DNA from: Planctomycetota bacterium
GTDB lineage: Bacteria; Planctomycetota; Planctomycetia; Pirellulales; Pirellulaceae
DNA length: 33,557 nucleotides
Assembly (NCBI GenBank): GCA_963204995.1
Contig: CAUJKL010001071.1
Span: forward strand, 1-33,557
Reading direction: 5' to 3'
The notes beneath the pieces were generated by a model. That model was not told the DNA's origin, did no database searches, and saw only the letters and a program-made list of their open reading frames with translations. Shown here piece after piece: positions 2,683 through 12,100 of this stretch (within the stretch, counting starts at the first letter, position 1; each line of letters opens with the position of its first letter). The translations under genes and the position numbers were made by a program.

Positions 2683-2712
2683 CCAGCGGTCGGCTCCGCC
2701 TACGACCGCTGG
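2683..2712. repeat. Perfect 10-bp-stem inverted repeat (CCAGCGGTCG-10 nt-CGACCGCTGG) just after the FGE-like gene stop
   Basis: Arms at 2683-2692 and 2703-2712, 18 bp beyond the TGA at 2730-2732. Confidence 0.8.
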
Positions 2713-2729
2713 GCCTCCGCCTCGCTGGC

Positions 2730-4427
2730 TCACACTGGCTCTGCCGGAACTGCGGCCAAGCGGAACCCGCGGTACCTGCGCCGACTGCCGGGCAAGTTCC
2801 CGGACCGGTAGGCCGAACGGCAGTACTCGCCGTAGTTGATCCAGCTACCACCGCGGAGGACCCGGAACGAGGCCCGTATAGGGCCGGCAGGGTTCAGCCG
2901 TGGCAAGGTCCGGTAATAGTCCGCGCCATACCAGTCGTGGCACCATTCCCAAACATTGCCGTGCATCTGATGGAAGCCCCAAACGTTGGCGGGAATACGC
3001 TCGCCATCCTCGCGAACTCCGCAAACGTCCAGCGTGTGTCCGCTACGCCAAACTTCCGTCAAAAACGCGTGTAAACGTTCGCGGTCATCCGGCCAAAGAT
3101 ACTCGCCGTTGTAGTTGCAGTACGCCAAGTCAATCTTCGTGCCATCGCTCCCGGCATCCCACGTAAACGGCGTGTCCCGGCCGCAGCGACACGCATACTC
3201 CCAGCGAGCTTCCGTGGGCAATTCGATCTCACACTCCACACCACCAAGTTTAATCAAGCCAAGCCACTTCGCGTAGCACCAGGCATCAAACCAACTCACG
3301 TTCACAACCGGATGATTGTCCGTATTCGATACCTTGTCCGTAAACTCACGACGATCAAAGTGACGCACATCAAAACGCTCGTATTTAACATTCGTCACAC
3401 AAAATCGATGCAAGTAGTAAGCAGATAACTCCACAGGATGCGCGGGATTATCCTGGCTCTTCCCGCTGCCATCCCAGTCAGGAGCCTCGCCATCCGGAGC
3501 TCCCATCGTGAATTTCACGTTGACAGCCTCTTCATGCTGGCCACGACCTAACGAGATGAAGCCGCCGTCGTCTTCATACGTAAACTCCCGGCAGAAATGA
3601 TCGCGTGCTTCCGTGTCTTCCATCCGGTCCCACGTGAGATAGATGAACTCCGTCGCTCGGATCACCCGCCCTTGCTCGTCCCGTGGTGCATTGGGATGCA
3701 CGACGTCATACAGCGGTGCGAACAGCGCCTGCCAACGAATTAAGTCGATCCCTTCGCGGGGCATCTCCGCAAGCAGTCGCCAGAATTCGGCGTACGCTTC
3801 GTTCTGTGCAAACAGCGGATCGGATACCCAGGCTTGCATTCGCACGCGGTCGTCGTCGCTGGCCCACCGGCCTGCCCAATAAGCCGCGAAGAAAGCTTGT
3901 GTCGTAATATCGGTGAACTGTACTCGCTCCGTCGATTCGCTAAACAGGAAATACTTCAATCCGTGGGAGTCCATCGCCTTCAGCCGTCGCCAATCCTCCC
4001 ATAAATGTTCGCCGTCGATCTGCTTGCCGCGAGAATTCAAATAGGCACCTGCTGATTCGAACCGGTCAAACGCGGAATTCACGAAGCCATCCACATCGCC
4101 GGTGATGGCAAACGCCGGTCCACCCGCCTCGCCGTCCGAGCAGTACATCTCAAAAGCGATCGCGCCCAGCAGGTCGCAGGCCAGCCGGACTTGCCACTTG
4201 CGTACTGCTCGCTCCTTCCGATTCAGCCGACCTTTCTTGTGCCAGCCGAAGTCGCGCGCTTCATCCGCCTTGAAGCCATCGTCCAACAAACCGGTTTCAT
4301 CGGCTGGATCGTCTGCCGCAAAGCGATGCACCTTCCACAGAACCGTTGCTTCAGAATCGTCTTCGTCGATCTGTCCCAGGTCCTCCAGACGGGCGATTAA
4401 CCGCGCGTAGCGCGGGATGCGGGACAT
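2730..4427 (-). CDS. FGE-sulfatase/C-type-lectin-fold (formylglycine-generating-enzyme-like) protein with helical N-terminal region; candidate DGR variable protein
   Basis: NHPVVNVSWFDAWCYAKWLG, LPTEARWEYACRCG, GNVWEWCHDWYG and RVLRGGSWINYGEYCRSAYRSGN..YRGFRLA are diagnostic FGE-sulfatase motifs. Track ORF begins at a TTG (4484); first ATG is at 4427. Confidence 0.9.
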   Translation of the reverse strand: MSRIPRYARLIARLEDLGQIDEDDSEATVLWKVHRFAADDPADETGLLDDGFKADEARDFGWHKKGRLNRKERAVRKWQVRLACDLLGAIAFEMYCSDGEAGGPAFAITGDVDGFVNSAFDRFESAGAYLNSRGKQIDGEHLWEDWRRLKAMDSHGLKYFLFSESTERVQFTDITTQAFFAAYWAGRWASDDDRVRMQAWVSDPLFAQNEAYAEFWRLLAEMPREGIDLIRWQALFAPLYDVVHPNAPRDEQGRVIRATEFIYLTWDRMEDTEARDHFCREFTYEDDGGFISLGRGQHEEAVNVKFTMGAPDGEAPDWDGSGKSQDNPAHPVELSAYYLHRFCVTNVKYERFDVRHFDRREFTDKVSNTDNHPVVNVSWFDAWCYAKWLGLIKLGGVECEIELPTEARWEYACRCGRDTPFTWDAGSDGTKIDLAYCNYNGEYLWPDDRERLHAFLTEVWRSGHTLDVCGVREDGERIPANVWGFHQMHGNVWEWCHDWYGADYYRTLPRLNPAGPIRASFRVLRGGSWINYGEYCRSAYRSGNLPGSRRRYRGFRLAAVPAEPV

Positions 4428-4555
4428 GCGACGGGCCGCGTTCCCAATGCGATCGTACTTGTGTGGACGAACAAAGAGAGACAAAGTGGTGGATCCAAAG
4501 CACAGGAGGTTGATTCAGTTGGTGGTTCGTCAAGAATATCGCGCATCGTTGACAT

Positions 4556-5467
4556 CTACCACCAGTTACCGGGAAACAAGTAGCGTAAGACTCCGAGCGC
4601 CGCAGCCGTCGAGGCCAAGCCGGCTTGGAATCGAGATAAACCGAGCGTTAAACGTGGCGAGGCAGCCATCAATGCACCGGATTTAGTTTCCGAATGGAAC
4701 AGCTTCGCTTCTTCATGAGTTGCTGTAATCGCCAAGTCCCAAAACAGTTTCGTGTTCCGGAAAAAGTCAGCCGGAATGAACACCAAGCCCATTGTGCGGG
4801 GATAGCCAAACGGATTCTGGCTGCCGATGCGTTCGCCCCAATTCTCCAGCCCAATGAACCAGCGTCTCCCTTGATGGTGAAAGTAGCCAACCAGAATAAA
4901 GCTGTGGCCGCCTTTGTAGTCGTCACTCAGCGGAAGCGGACGGACACCCGTGAACAGGGATTCTGGCAGAAGCCATTCCTCCGGCAAACCGACTCCGAGG
5001 ATCAGGACGCGTCCCTTCAGCTTGAGAGCTTCCGACCCGTAGAGCAACAGGCACATCAAGTCGATTGTGTCCGGCTCGCCGATCAAGGGGCGGAGGCTGA
5101 CAAACGTCTCGATTCTACGCTTCTTGGCGTCGGCAATCGCCGCGTTATCAGGTTTGACGTAGCGACTGTCGCAAAAGTTTGTCTCGGGATAAAGTTGTTC
5201 CGTGCAGATCCCGCGTTCGCAAGCGCCCTGCAAGACGACTGCGGGCCAAGTCCCAGTCGGAGGAATGGGATAGTCACGTTTCTGCATCGCATATTCCCAA
5301 GCAAACAAGCCGCTGAGGTGCCGATCGCAGATGTTCAGTTGTACTTCCGTCGCATTGCGACAAGCGTGCCCCACACAATTTGGGCCACGCTGTGCAATCA
5401 CCGGCTTGTAGCGGAACAAGTCCAGGTGGTCAAACTGATGCGGCAAGACGTGCGAGTGGCTCGCCAA
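4556..5467 (-). CDS. Papain-like (C1 family) cysteine peptidase
   Basis: Q/C motif 'QRGPNCVGHACRNATE', His motif 'GGHSFILVGY', Asn motif 'LENWGERIG' in the right order. Start is TTG and uncertain. Confidence 0.75.
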   Translation of the reverse strand: MASHSHVLPHQFDHLDLFRYKPVIAQRGPNCVGHACRNATEVQLNICDRHLSGLFAWEYAMQKRDYPIPPTGTWPAVVLQGACERGICTEQLYPETNFCDSRYVKPDNAAIADAKKRRIETFVSLRPLIGEPDTIDLMCLLLYGSEALKLKGRVLILGVGLPEEWLLPESLFTGVRPLPLSDDYKGGHSFILVGYFHHQGRRWFIGLENWGERIGSQNPFGYPRTMGLVFIPADFFRNTKLFWDLAITATHEEAKLFHSETKSGALMAASPRLTLGLSRFQAGLASTAAALGVLRYLFPGNWW

Positions 5468-7095: not shown

Positions 7096-8526
7096 TCACG
7101 CCAACAGTTCGTCGACCACGCGTGCGGGGAGGACGCCGGTTAGTCGTTGATCGAGGCCTTGGTATTTGTACGCGAACCGTTCGTGATCAAAACCGAGCAG
7201 GTGCAGGACGGTGGCGTGGAAGTCGCGGATGTGGAGCGGGTCGCGTATGATGTTGTACGAGAAGTCGTCCGTTTCTCCGTAAATCGTCCCGCCTTTTGCA
7301 CCACCCCCGGCCATCCACATGCTGAAGCAACGCGGGTGATGATCGCGGCCGTAGTTTTCCTTCGAGAGAGTGCCTTGCGTGTAAATCGTGCGACCGAATT
7401 CGCCGCCCCAGATGATCAGCGTATCGTCCAACATACCGCGCTGCTTGAGGTCTTCGAGCAACGCATAACATGGCTGATCAATGTCTTTGCATTGACTAGG
7501 CATGCGACCGGCGACATTGGAATGATGGTCCCAGTTGTTGTGATAGACTTGCACGAAGCGCACACCGCGCTCGATGAGTCGACGTGCCATCAACGCGGTA
7601 TTCGCGAAACTGCCAGGCTTCTTCGCCTCGTCTCCGTACAGGTCGAAGATATGCTGTGGCTCGCTGCTGAAATCCGTCAGCTCCGGCACGCTGGACTGCA
7701 TGCGGAAGGCCAGTTCGTATTGTTGTATCCGCGTGTGCGTTTCTGGATCGCCAAGCGTTTCGTAATTGATCTCGTTCAACTTATTGAGGCCGTCGATCGA
7801 TCGTTTGCGAATCGCATCGGGAACACCGGGCGGATTATTGATGTAGAGAATCGGATCGCCCTTGCTGCGGAACGATACGCCCGCGTACTCGCCAGGCAAA
7901 TAACCGGCGCTCCACAGTCGCGAAGAAATGGCTTGCTCCTGGTCGCGGTTGCTCGGTGTTGCCACCAGGACGACGAATGCAGGCAGATTCTCGTTCATGG
8001 TGCCCAGACCATAAGAAGCCCATGCACCAAGGCAAGGCCGACCGGTGACTTGATTACCGGTCTGCATGGCGGCGATCGCGGGCTCGTGGTTGATCGCTTC
8101 GGTGTTCAGGCTCCGCATCCAGCAGATTTCGTCGGCCTTCTTTTCCAGGTTTGGCAGCAACTCGGTGTTCATCCACAAACCACACTCACCGGCCTGGCTG
8201 AACTTGAACTTGGAGGGGGCGACGGGAAAACGCGCCTGACCGCTGGTCATCGTGGTCAGCCGCTGGCCCATCCGGATCGATTCGGGCAGCTCTTTGTCGT
8301 ACCACTCTTGCATCACCGGCTTGTAATCGAACAGGTCCATTTGTGCCGGGCCACCGACCATGTGCAGATAGATCACGCGCTTCGCTTTGGGCGCGAACTG
8401 AGGGCCGGGAGCTTTCGATTCGGATGCCGTTACGAATGATTCCCCAAGCAACGAAGCGAGTGCCGCACCGCCCAAGAGGTGTTTGCCATTGGTGAAGAAT
8501 TGACGGCGAGATTGGAGAGTGTTCAT
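7096..8526 (-). CDS. DUF1501 family protein (sulfatase-like, Tat-type N-terminus)
   Basis: RRQFFTNGKHLLGGAALASLLG signal; HMVGGPAQMDLFDYKP, WGGEFGRTIYTQG and GRDHHPRCFSMWMAGGG are DUF1501 hallmarks. Start taken at the ATG of MNTLQSRRQFF. Confidence 0.93.
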   Translation of the reverse strand: MNTLQSRRQFFTNGKHLLGGAALASLLGESFVTASESKAPGPQFAPKAKRVIYLHMVGGPAQMDLFDYKPVMQEWYDKELPESIRMGQRLTTMTSGQARFPVAPSKFKFSQAGECGLWMNTELLPNLEKKADEICWMRSLNTEAINHEPAIAAMQTGNQVTGRPCLGAWASYGLGTMNENLPAFVVLVATPSNRDQEQAISSRLWSAGYLPGEYAGVSFRSKGDPILYINNPPGVPDAIRKRSIDGLNKLNEINYETLGDPETHTRIQQYELAFRMQSSVPELTDFSSEPQHIFDLYGDEAKKPGSFANTALMARRLIERGVRFVQVYHNNWDHHSNVAGRMPSQCKDIDQPCYALLEDLKQRGMLDDTLIIWGGEFGRTIYTQGTLSKENYGRDHHPRCFSMWMAGGGAKGGTIYGETDDFSYNIIRDPLHIRDFHATVLHLLGFDHERFAYKYQGLDQRLTGVLPARVVDELLA

Positions 8527-8534
8527 GGTTTTAT

Positions 8535-8630
8535 GTTCAAGGTTCAAGGTTCAAGGTTCAAGGTTTCAGGTTTCAGGTTTCAGGTTTCAGGTTTCAGGTT
8601 TCAGGTTTCAGGTTTCAGGTTTCAGGTTTC
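8535..8630. repeat. Heptanucleotide tandem repeat: 4x GTTCAAG then 9x GTTTCAG
   Basis: Units counted by eye; period exactly 7 bp, sited between the DUF1501 gene start and the S23 gene. Confidence 0.97.
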
Positions 8631-9032
8631 GATTATTTGGGTGATGGGTATTTTTGGCCTTTTAGGTCGGTCTTTTTTTAGATAGGAGATGAAACCGTCG
8701 ATGAGGCGATTGTTCTCGATGCAACGGTCGTGTAGCTGCTGGAATTCTTCTTGTGTGATGTAGCTTTCGTCCAAGGCAACGTAGAGTTGCGATCGCACTT
8801 CGCCGCACGAACCTTTCGCGGTTGAAAGAAACTGAATGAACTCTCTGTTGCCACCACGTTCAAAGCCCTCGGCTATATTCGAGGTGATCGAAATTGCCGT
8901 GCGTCGTATCTGATCCTTCAGTGCAAGATCCCTGGCGAACTCGCCGCGTCGCGAGAAACGATAGACAGCTTGCGTCAGCTCTCGTCCCTTCTGCCACGCT
9001 TGGATGTCCTCGAATCGTTCAATCGTAGCCAT
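8622..9032 (-). CDS. Four-helix-bundle protein (23S rRNA intervening-sequence protein / S23 family)
   Basis: FEDIQAWQKGRELTQAVYRFSRRGEFARDLALKDQIRRTAISITSNIAEGFERGGNREFIQFLSTAKGSCGEVRSQLYVALDESYIT matches the family consensus. Confidence 0.92.
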   Translation of the reverse strand: MATIERFEDIQAWQKGRELTQAVYRFSRRGEFARDLALKDQIRRTAISITSNIAEGFERGGNREFIQFLSTAKGSCGEVRSQLYVALDESYITQEEFQQLHDRCIENNRLIDGFISYLKKDRPKRPKIPITQIIET

Positions 9033-9045
9033 GCAATCACATAAT

Positions 9046-9169
9046 TTTGAGATTTGAGATTTGAGATTTGAGATTTGAGATTTGAGATTTGAGATCTGAG
9101 ATCTGAGATCTGAGATCTGAGATCTGAGAATTGAGAATTGAGAATTGAGAATTGAGAATTGAGAATTGA
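9046..9169. repeat. Heptanucleotide tandem repeat: 7x TTTGAGA, 5x TCTGAGA, 5x ATTGAGA (+ partial)
   Basis: Units counted by eye; lies between the S23 start codon and the PSD1 gene stop; variant units occur in blocks. Confidence 0.97.
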
Positions 9170-9177
9170 ACCTGACA

Positions 9178-12100
9178 CTACTTATTTAACGCTTCGTCCA
9201 GATTAATGACTTCGTTGCAGATCATCGTCCACGTCGCGAGTTCGGTCACATCGAGCTTATCGTCGGCCTTCGATTCACCAACGGCAATCAACGCCTTGGC
9301 TTCATCCGGTCTTGATTGGTAGTAGGCGAGAAACGCTTCCTTATCTTCCAAGATAATGGCTTGCTCTCGCTCGTTCATCGGACGACCGAGCACGTGTTGG
9401 AAAATGTAGTCGATCGTCTTGGCAGTATCACCGCTGCTCGCTTTCAACGCGTTCTCCGCGAGGTGACGAGCAGCTTCAAAGAATTGCGGATCGTTCAGTG
9501 TGACTAGTGCCTGGAGCGGTGTGTTGGTCCGCTCGCGGCGGACGGTGCATACCTCGCGGCTGGGAGCGTTGAACGCATCGAGATTGGGGGGCGGTGCCAT
9601 GCGCTTCCAGAACGTGTAGAGCGTGCGGCGGTAGAGATTCTCGCCCGTGTCCTGCACATAGTTACGCGTATCGCCGCCGGGCAGCCCGACGACGTCCCAG
9701 ATTCCTTCCGGCTGATAGGGCCTGGTGCCCGCACCGTACATCTTCGGCGACAGCAAACCGCTCACCGCCAACACCTCGTCGCGGACCATTTCGGCATCCA
9801 TCCGGAATCGAGGGCCGCGTGAGAGCAGAGTATTGCTGCGATCCTGTTCAAGCTTCTCTGGCGTCGTGATCGCGGCTTGTCGGTACGTCGCGCTGGTCAA
9901 CATGAGCTTGAACATTCGCTTCACATCCCAGCCACTTTCACGGAACTCGACCGCCAGCCAGTCGAGCAGCTCCGGATGGCTCGGCATCGTCCCCATCACA
10001 CCGAAATCTTCCGGCGTCGTGACGATGCCTTGTCCGAACACTTCGCTCCAGAACCGATTCACCGTCACACGAGCGGTCAGCGGATTGGCAGGATCGACCA
10101 GCCATTGAGCTAAGCCTAGTCGGTTGTTCGGCGCACCCTCGGGCATGGGATGCATGGCGGCGGGCGTGGCGGCGTTCACCGGCTCACCGACCTTGTCATA
10201 TTCACCACGCATGAGAATATTAGCCATCGCCGGCGAATCCTTTCGCTCTTCCTGAATGTGCGTGACCGGGCTGCGAGCGCGAATCGTTTCACGCTCCGCT
10301 TCCAGATCGACGACGGCTTTGTTCAGCACCGGATATTCCGTGTCGCGAGTGGCCAGATAGTGATCGTACAGCGCGGTCTGTTGTTCCGGCGTGCGCTGCT
10401 CCGAAGCAATGGCCAGGATCGACCGCAGCGGGGCGAGATCGGCGATCGACTGGACCTCAGTAGCGCCAATCGCGCGACCATAGACTCGTACATCTTGAAT
10501 GGCACCGCCATCGAACACTTGCGTGTCGCTGCGTTGGCCAATGCGCAGCGATGTGCTGGTCCGAATCGACGCGTCCGGCTTGAGCGTGTTGTTCTCGACC
10601 TTGAGCGGCTCTTCCTTGCCATCGACATAGATTTTGATCCCCTCCGGCTTGCCGGAACCATCATAGGTCGCGAAGACATTTTGCCACTGGCCGGGATTGA
10701 GGACGGCGTTGTTGGTCACAACTTTGAGCGCGTTGCCCGGCCAGGAATCGACGAGGTGTACCGCGAGTGAACGTCCCTGTTGCCACAGATCCCAGCCGCG
10801 ATAATCGGCCTTCTCGTCCATCCGGGCGATGATGCCGCCGCTTTTGCTATCGCTTCCCGCCTTGATCCAGGCACCGTAGCTGAAACTCTGATTTCTTTCG
10901 AAGTCGCCGAGCGCGCCCAGATCGAACGTACCGCCAAGTTTCATTACCGGGGCCGAGCCAAGTTTTCCATCGGGGGTCCAAGTGACTTCACCGGTCGACT
11001 TGAAGTTTTCAGCGCTGTTGCAGGCGTTGGCCACTTCGTTGCCGGTGCCTTCATCGAGCGGCACGTGAACGACGAGCCCTTCGATCGGCAAGGCGTCGTC
11101 GAGCGATTCAATATTCGCGGAAGCCAGCCATTTTTCGAAGTCGCCGCGCGCATTCTGTTTACGCTCGTCGCGTTTTGCCGTCGCAGCCGCGATTTCGGCG
11201 GGCAGAGCGTTCCAGCGCGGACGGTCAGCCTCCGAGGGAACTTGCAGCACGGCGCTGCGTCCATCCTTGACGTTGCCATCTTTCGCGGGCTGTGTCGTAT
11301 TGCGGAAGAAAGCGGCGAGCGAATAGTAGTCTCGTTGCGTGAACGGATCGAACTTGTGGTCGTGACACTGGCCACAGTTTGTCGTTAGCCCGAGATACAC
11401 CCAGCCGAACGTCTGCACTCGGTCGACCGCATAGTTCGCCAAGTTTTCTTCATCGATCGTGCCGCCTTCGTTGGTCGTCATGTTACAGCGTTGGAAACCA
11501 GTGGCAATTAGCTGGTCCATCGTTGGATTGGGCAGCAGGTCGCCGGCGATTTGCTCGACGGTGAATTGGTCGAAGGGCTGATTTGCATTGAAGGCGCGGA
11601 TCACCCAGTCGCGATAGGGCCACATCTCGCGATAGTTGTCGAAGTGCATGCCGTGCGTATCGGCATACCGCGCCGCATCGAGCCAGTAACGGGCGCGATG
11701 CTCGCCCCACGCCGACGTTTTCATCAGCCGGTCGATCCAGTCGGACAACGCGTCGTCTTGACGCTGGTTGAAGTCGCTTACGAAGGCGGCCACATCTTCG
11801 GGCGACGGCGGAAGGCCCGTGATGTCGAGATGCAATCTGCGAAACAGCGTGTGGGCATCGGCTGGGGGTGCCGGTGACAAGCCGTTCGCTTCCAGCTTTG
11901 CCAGCACAAATCGGTCGATGACGTTCTTGACCCACGCTTCATTCTTTACCGTCGGCGGCTCAGGTTTTCGCGGAGCGATGAACGACCAATGAGCCTGATA
12001 ATCGGCACCCGTCGCGATCCATTGCTTGAGCAACTTCTTCTGTGCATCGGTCAGTTGTTTCTTGGTCTCGGGTGGCGGCATCACGAGTTCTGGGTCGCTG

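Follow-up and report, generated by a model that had tools for sequence, protein, structure and literature searches.

Can the 3' end of a gene be the variable region (VR) of a diversity-generating retroelement (DGR) when neither an RT nor a template repeat (TR) can be placed on the contig that carries it, and does the hairpin just past its stop codon belong to such a region? The question is raised by contig C1071 (CAUJKL010001071.1), whose whole length of 33,557 nucleotides, numbered on the forward strand, is called the window here. It comes from the draft genome of a Planctomycetota bacterium of the Pirellulaceae (GCA_963204995.1; 9.7 Mb in 1,093 contigs, 94% complete), and since the bin has 7% contamination its contigs may not all derive from one genome. 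A preliminary description of the window had read the end of an FGE-like gene as a variable region, and that reading is supported as to kind by the pattern of differences between paralogs, by a class of hairpin specific to VRs, by an RT in the assembly and by related DGRs in other genomes. We consider it very probable that the 3' end of this gene is a VR.

Table 1. Features at the 3' end of the FGE-like gene (positions in the window).
Feature	Positions	Strand	Basis
FGE-like protein (C-type lectin fold), 584 aa, proposed DGR target	2730-4484	minus	PF03781 and paralog identity
Proposed VR core, GGSW to GFR, 32-codon motif; limits provisional without a TR	2758-2846	minus	paralog differences and gap-free TR alignment
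Constant gene 3' end (LAAVPAEPV, stop), candidate IMH-like end	2730-2757	minus	alignment of window, C800 and C458
Hairpin: perfect 10-bp stem with 10-nt loop, or 9 bp with inner GC-GGA-GC triloop minihairpin	2683-2712 (arms 2683-2692, 2703-2712)	minus	sequence and DNA fold
Outer stem GTGAGC/GCTCAC around stop codon and hairpin	2661-2733	minus	DNA fold
Second GCGNAGC (GCGCAGC)	2665-2671	minus	motif positions
Block homogenised with C800, spanning VR, stop and hairpin	about 2657-2866	minus	identity profile

The C-terminal half of the window protein (residues 325-577) is an FGE-sulfatase domain (PF03781, E = 2.5e-38), which was all that the domain search returned, with no NTPase domain in the protein. 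Among solved structures this domain is closest to genuine formylglycine-generating enzymes (E = 1e-22), unlike the RT-linked target on contig C113, which is closest to Treponema TvpA (2y3c, E = 1e-28), an FGE-fold DGR variable protein that matches the window domain as well (E = 2.6e-14). The window protein is itself unlikely to be a formylglycine-generating enzyme; on reading of the sequence, only what looks like the second cysteine of the active-site pair is present, in YCRSA. On the minus strand the C-terminus reads RVLRGGSWINYGEYCRSAYRSGNLPGSRRRYRGFRLAAVPAEPV, with the stop at 2730-2732, and the last 44 residues translate as they had been given before. The protein is 58% identical to a paralog on contig C458 and 48% identical to one on contig C800, and GGGTTCCGCTTGGCCGCAGTTCCGG, within 2730-2757, is identical in all three. 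Upstream of the C458 paralog an ORF has a NACHT domain (PF05729), and the ORF that follows it is related to the N-terminal region of the window protein. Downstream of the FGE-like gene lies a ThiF-family (E1-like) protein (PF00899; 833-2209, minus strand). The ORF at 4556-5467 has just one very weak match among solved structures, to a cysteine protease (E = 0.038), and at about 9047-9144, on the minus strand, stands a tandem 7-nt repeat of CAGATCT and then CAAATCT units.

Across 12 related genomes, 20 TR/VR loci place the VR at the same site as the proposed VR of the window. Our TR set consists of 20 TRs from DGR loci of these genomes, 19 of which share the 32-codon length of the window tail, and the window VR core aligns with 19 TRs without a gap. 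Within its own assembly, the tail DNA is 89% identical to C800 over 193 bp; against C458 the figure is 76% over 155 bp, and all other matches have E > 0.2. If the end of the gene were merely a naturally variable loop of the FGE fold, in which no DGR was ever involved, then variable residues at these positions would be expected anyway, and many FGE proteins do vary there. The residue pattern that had been offered as a sign of a VR thus proves nothing as a protein pattern alone, and this is where the preliminary reading was weak.

Between the window and C800, third positions differ in 2 of 36 VR codons vs 318 of 526 codons elsewhere. Codons with a changed amino acid also differ at position 3 in one of seven cases inside the VR and in 213 of 300 outside it, and the same measure gives 5/15 vs 154/228 and 5/16 vs 211/303 in the other two paralog pairs (p = 0.004 to 0.011 across the three). 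The differences also gather where a template would have A. With template-A columns defined as those having A in at least half of 19 related TRs (23 of 84 columns), 19 of the 30 differences between the window and C458 (p = 7e-8) and 17 of the 27 between C800 and C458 (p = 1.3e-6) fall on them, these being p-values that treat sites as independent and come from pairs that share sequences; the closest pair, window and C800, has 5 of 10 there (p = 0.095), which is suggestive at most. For comparison, 52 control pairs of FGE genes from the same genome place 12-42% of their differences on template-A columns, a range that only the VR pairs exceed, and they show 12-24 third-position differences over the same stretch where the three VR pairs show 2-5. 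The variation at A positions that the preliminary description predicted is therefore seen between the three paralogs, as avoidance of third positions and enrichment on template-A columns. Ordinary divergence of the FGE fold is left very improbable by these contrasts with control genes, and the absence of the hairpin motif described below from other FGE genes of the genome also stands against it.

The same comparison speaks to the history of the tail. Third positions are nearly constant between the window and C800 and yet amino acids differ, which indicates fairly recent change; C458 differs from both at some third positions, so that part of the change was not A-templated. The block that the window shares with C800 is 83-93% identical per 30 bp; identity falls to about 50% or less immediately past the downstream boundary and is 57% in the sequence immediately upstream. 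Since this homogenised block reaches past the VR into the hairpin, gene conversion or duplication fits better than homing alone. In genome G010, the window protein has two homologs, 43-46% identical to it, that are convergently oriented (C369; L101:6429-10656) and have identical VR-like tails; a TR-like sequence on C134 of that genome was considered as the template for their VRs and misfits at non-A positions.

The stem of the hairpin is exact over 10 bp, as claimed earlier, with a gap to the stop codon of 17 bp where 18 had been counted. Folded as single-stranded DNA, positions 2655-2735 exceed every one of 200 shuffles in stability (z = -4.1); of its counterparts, that in C458 also folds well (z = -3.2) and that in C800 does not (z = -0.3). 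The core of the hairpin, GGCGGAGCC, which contains the GNA triloop, recurs in the window, C800 and C458. Minihairpins of d(GCGNAGC) are unusually stable in vitro, and the same motif turns up repeatedly in work on aptamers.

That core belongs to a class which, in this bacterial family, follows the variable copy and hardly ever the template. Within 200 nt, GCGNAGC on the sense strand, forming a C-GNA-G triloop, occurs after 27 of 31 family VRs vs 1 of 20 TRs (p = 3e-9), counts that are not independent since the VRs are themselves related, and the four VRs that lack it all have a GNA-triloop hairpin of some other sequence, with at least 7 bp. A copy at a TR site in G105 (C17; L231:6210-6279) reads VR-like and was left out of this count; taken as a TR it changes the contrast to 27/31 vs 2/21 (p = 2e-8). 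The pattern is post hoc, since the loop motif arose from inspecting the results of a longest-perfect-stem score that itself parted VRs from TRs weakly, and it was checked afterwards on the genome's own FGE genes, on ORF ends and in other phyla. In this genome GCGNAGC follows 6 of 6 VRs (window, C800, C458, C113, C554 and C426) vs 0 of 12 further FGE genes; it is also missing from C473, which is not counted among those six and is a fragment of an FGE gene with kinship to the C113 tail. GNA hairpins of at least 5 bp follow 15 of 31 VRs (0.27 expected from shuffles) and none of the remaining 203 ORF ends in these loci, of which 19 are followed by the heptamer itself. Outside the family, one planctomycete and one lentisphaeral TR/VR locus have GCGNAGC after the VR and none after the TR; a 10-bp GNA hairpin follows a hydrogenedentotal VR, and a bacteroidotal locus lacks both. 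As a control, the same scan of DGRs on viral contigs found a GRNA tetraloop after 14 of 43 VRs and after no TR; the best hairpins of the family VRs never have a GRNA loop, several short GCGNAGC units being frequent there. The hairpin pointed out in the preliminary description is thus of a class that, in this bacterial family, stands downstream of VRs and is nearly absent downstream of TRs.

Two loci of G105 show further arrangements of the same elements. On C17 (L231:6205-6299, minus strand), in a stretch that overlaps the 3' end of the RT gene, template-like A codons come first and are followed by VR-like codons and GCGNAGC, as if a VR had overwritten a TR. On C38 (L232:5239-5308 and 8424-8493), a single DGR has two VRs, and behind each lies a near-perfect inverted repeat of 24-25 bp, the arms of which differ in sequence from each other at matched positions.

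The hairpin could be unrelated to the tail even where the latter is a VR: it might form a structure at the mRNA 3' end or belong to a palindromic repeat that is dispersed, and play no role in the choice of the VR. The strand bias of GCGNAGC (71 sense, 2 antisense, with a background of 0.53 per kb and strand) is what an RNA element would show, and similar CCAGGGGCGGAGCCCCTGG units stand after more than one gene. On the other hand, the window hairpin has no T run in the terminator scan and its region has no match in the Rfam scan, and the concentration of GNA hairpins after VRs, with none at the other ORF ends and the motif nearly always missing from TRs, is hard to reconcile with a general 3'-end element or repeat. 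We regard an unrelated hairpin as unlikely.

If the tail is a VR, an RT should have rewritten it, and the expectation that no cassette would be found beside it was borne out in part: searches gave it no place on the window contig and a DGR-type RT stands on another contig of the assembly, but the TR found elsewhere belongs to another DGR. Among the four RVT_1 matches in the assembly, that on C113 carries the DGR-type motifs LPIGSLTSQ and YMDD, with an HRDC gene and a caspase-FGE target upstream on the same strand. The solved structure that matches this RT best is 8ub7 (E = 1.7e-39), which we take to be the BPP-1 DGR RT, and in related genomes TR/VR pairs accompany RTs that share 41-54% identity with that of C113. 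The C113 RT gene is cut by the contig end, and its relatives in G065 (C312) and G214 carry the TR beyond that point. At the start of contig C554 stands a VR that is sister to that of the C113 target, from which it differs at 13 of 79 nt, always in the first or second codon position; it was considered as the missing TR of C113 and rejected, being a second VR. A third locus, C426 (G000, 7948-11017, L252), has a kinase-FGE target with a VR and a TR about 500 bp downstream, between which lies what reads like the C-terminal remnant of an RT; there is apparently no intact RT, and the locus seems to have lost it by internal deletion.

The near-identical template copy of the window tail that was to be sought in the genome did not turn up in the draft assembly when we searched with the VR itself, with an imputed A-rich TR, with a core pattern and with a general TR pattern. 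The TR of C426 and the VRs of C113 and C554 were rejected because they differ from the tail at non-A positions. When the imputed template, with A at the variable positions of the tail, is compared with other genomes, the sequences that match it best are real TRs (G065 C312, G194 C892 and G214 C5), and it is therefore of the right kind. A TR presumably exists or existed for the window VR, either in unassembled sequence, as that of C113 seems to be, or lost.

The loss of the TR would make the window tail a fossil or orphan VR, one that was diversified in the past, whose TR and perhaps RT are gone, and that, now evolving as a fixed gene end, was passed between paralogs through duplication or gene conversion, hairpin included. 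This falls just short of an even chance in our estimation. It would account for the missing TR and for a block shared with C800 that includes the hairpin, and C426 offers an example of such decay. VR-like tails may also persist without a DGR, since G110 (one contig, 99% complete) has two of them together with one other RT, and nothing in it matches the C113 RT at E <= 1e-10. The missing TR is, however, weak evidence in a fragmented assembly, because the RT-linked C113 target likewise has none where its contig ends inside the RT gene, and the nearly unchanged third positions beside differing amino acids in the window and C800 fit poorly with a long-fixed end. What can be said from sequence is that the window VR is an orphan or a remote target; that the present copy is still being diversified is somewhat less likely than not.

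Several features of known systems recur here. In Thiohalocapsa PB-PSB1 and its relatives (PMC10907252), the VR lies in a C-terminal FGE-type lectin domain as in the window, DGRs are associated with NACHT domains, as here at the ORF upstream of the C458 paralog, and incomplete loci and remote targets are servable in trans. The NACHT/STAND-linked FGE-type targets described there, which have been proposed as antigen sensors, differ from the window target in that the latter has no NTPase domain of its own and no TR was found for it, and the text searched in that source makes no mention of a VR hairpin (PMC10907252). The BPP-1 DGR shares with the present case the RT, the TR/VR logic and a GC-rich hairpin shortly downstream of the VR only, and hairpin-based target choice has been shown in it (PMC3240598). 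Phage DGR hairpins have stems of 7-10 bp, lie 4-34 bp from the VR and have 4-nt GRNA loops (PMC3240598), unlike the GNA triloop or 10-nt loop of the window and the 3-nt GNA loops of the family. As judged from sequence comparison, the window VR likely joins a known kind of VR, and its GNA-triloop mark probably represents a novel form of the known target hairpin.

Under the reading that we favor, a DGR RT would copy the TR RNA with errors opposite A, and the mutated cDNA would replace the VR at the gene end. The hairpin past the stop would tell the machinery which copy to rewrite, sparing the TR, which has none. By analogy with phage, the window hairpin may act in target choice in this way, and the RT that rewrote the window VR would presumably have been that of C113 or a relative. 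The window protein, which is akin to NACHT-linked sensors and may itself be a sensor, would thereby vary at surface residues of its C-type lectin binding domain. As a broader model, rated slightly below an even chance, we tentatively propose that in DGRs of this bacterial family, and perhaps in other cellular lineages too, clusters of sense-strand GCGNAGC minihairpins replace the phage GRNA hairpin as the mark of a VR as opposed to a TR, and that cassettes of VR plus hairpin pass between sensor genes and stay addressable in trans.

The discrimination of target from template was worked out in a phage, and the papers searched yielded nothing comparable on cellular DGRs. With a short motif that comes after most VRs but hardly any TRs, target choice can be put to a direct test. 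A large contig-based survey states its inability to detect remote VRs (PMC8144416), and the motif could flag such VRs in fragmented genomes.
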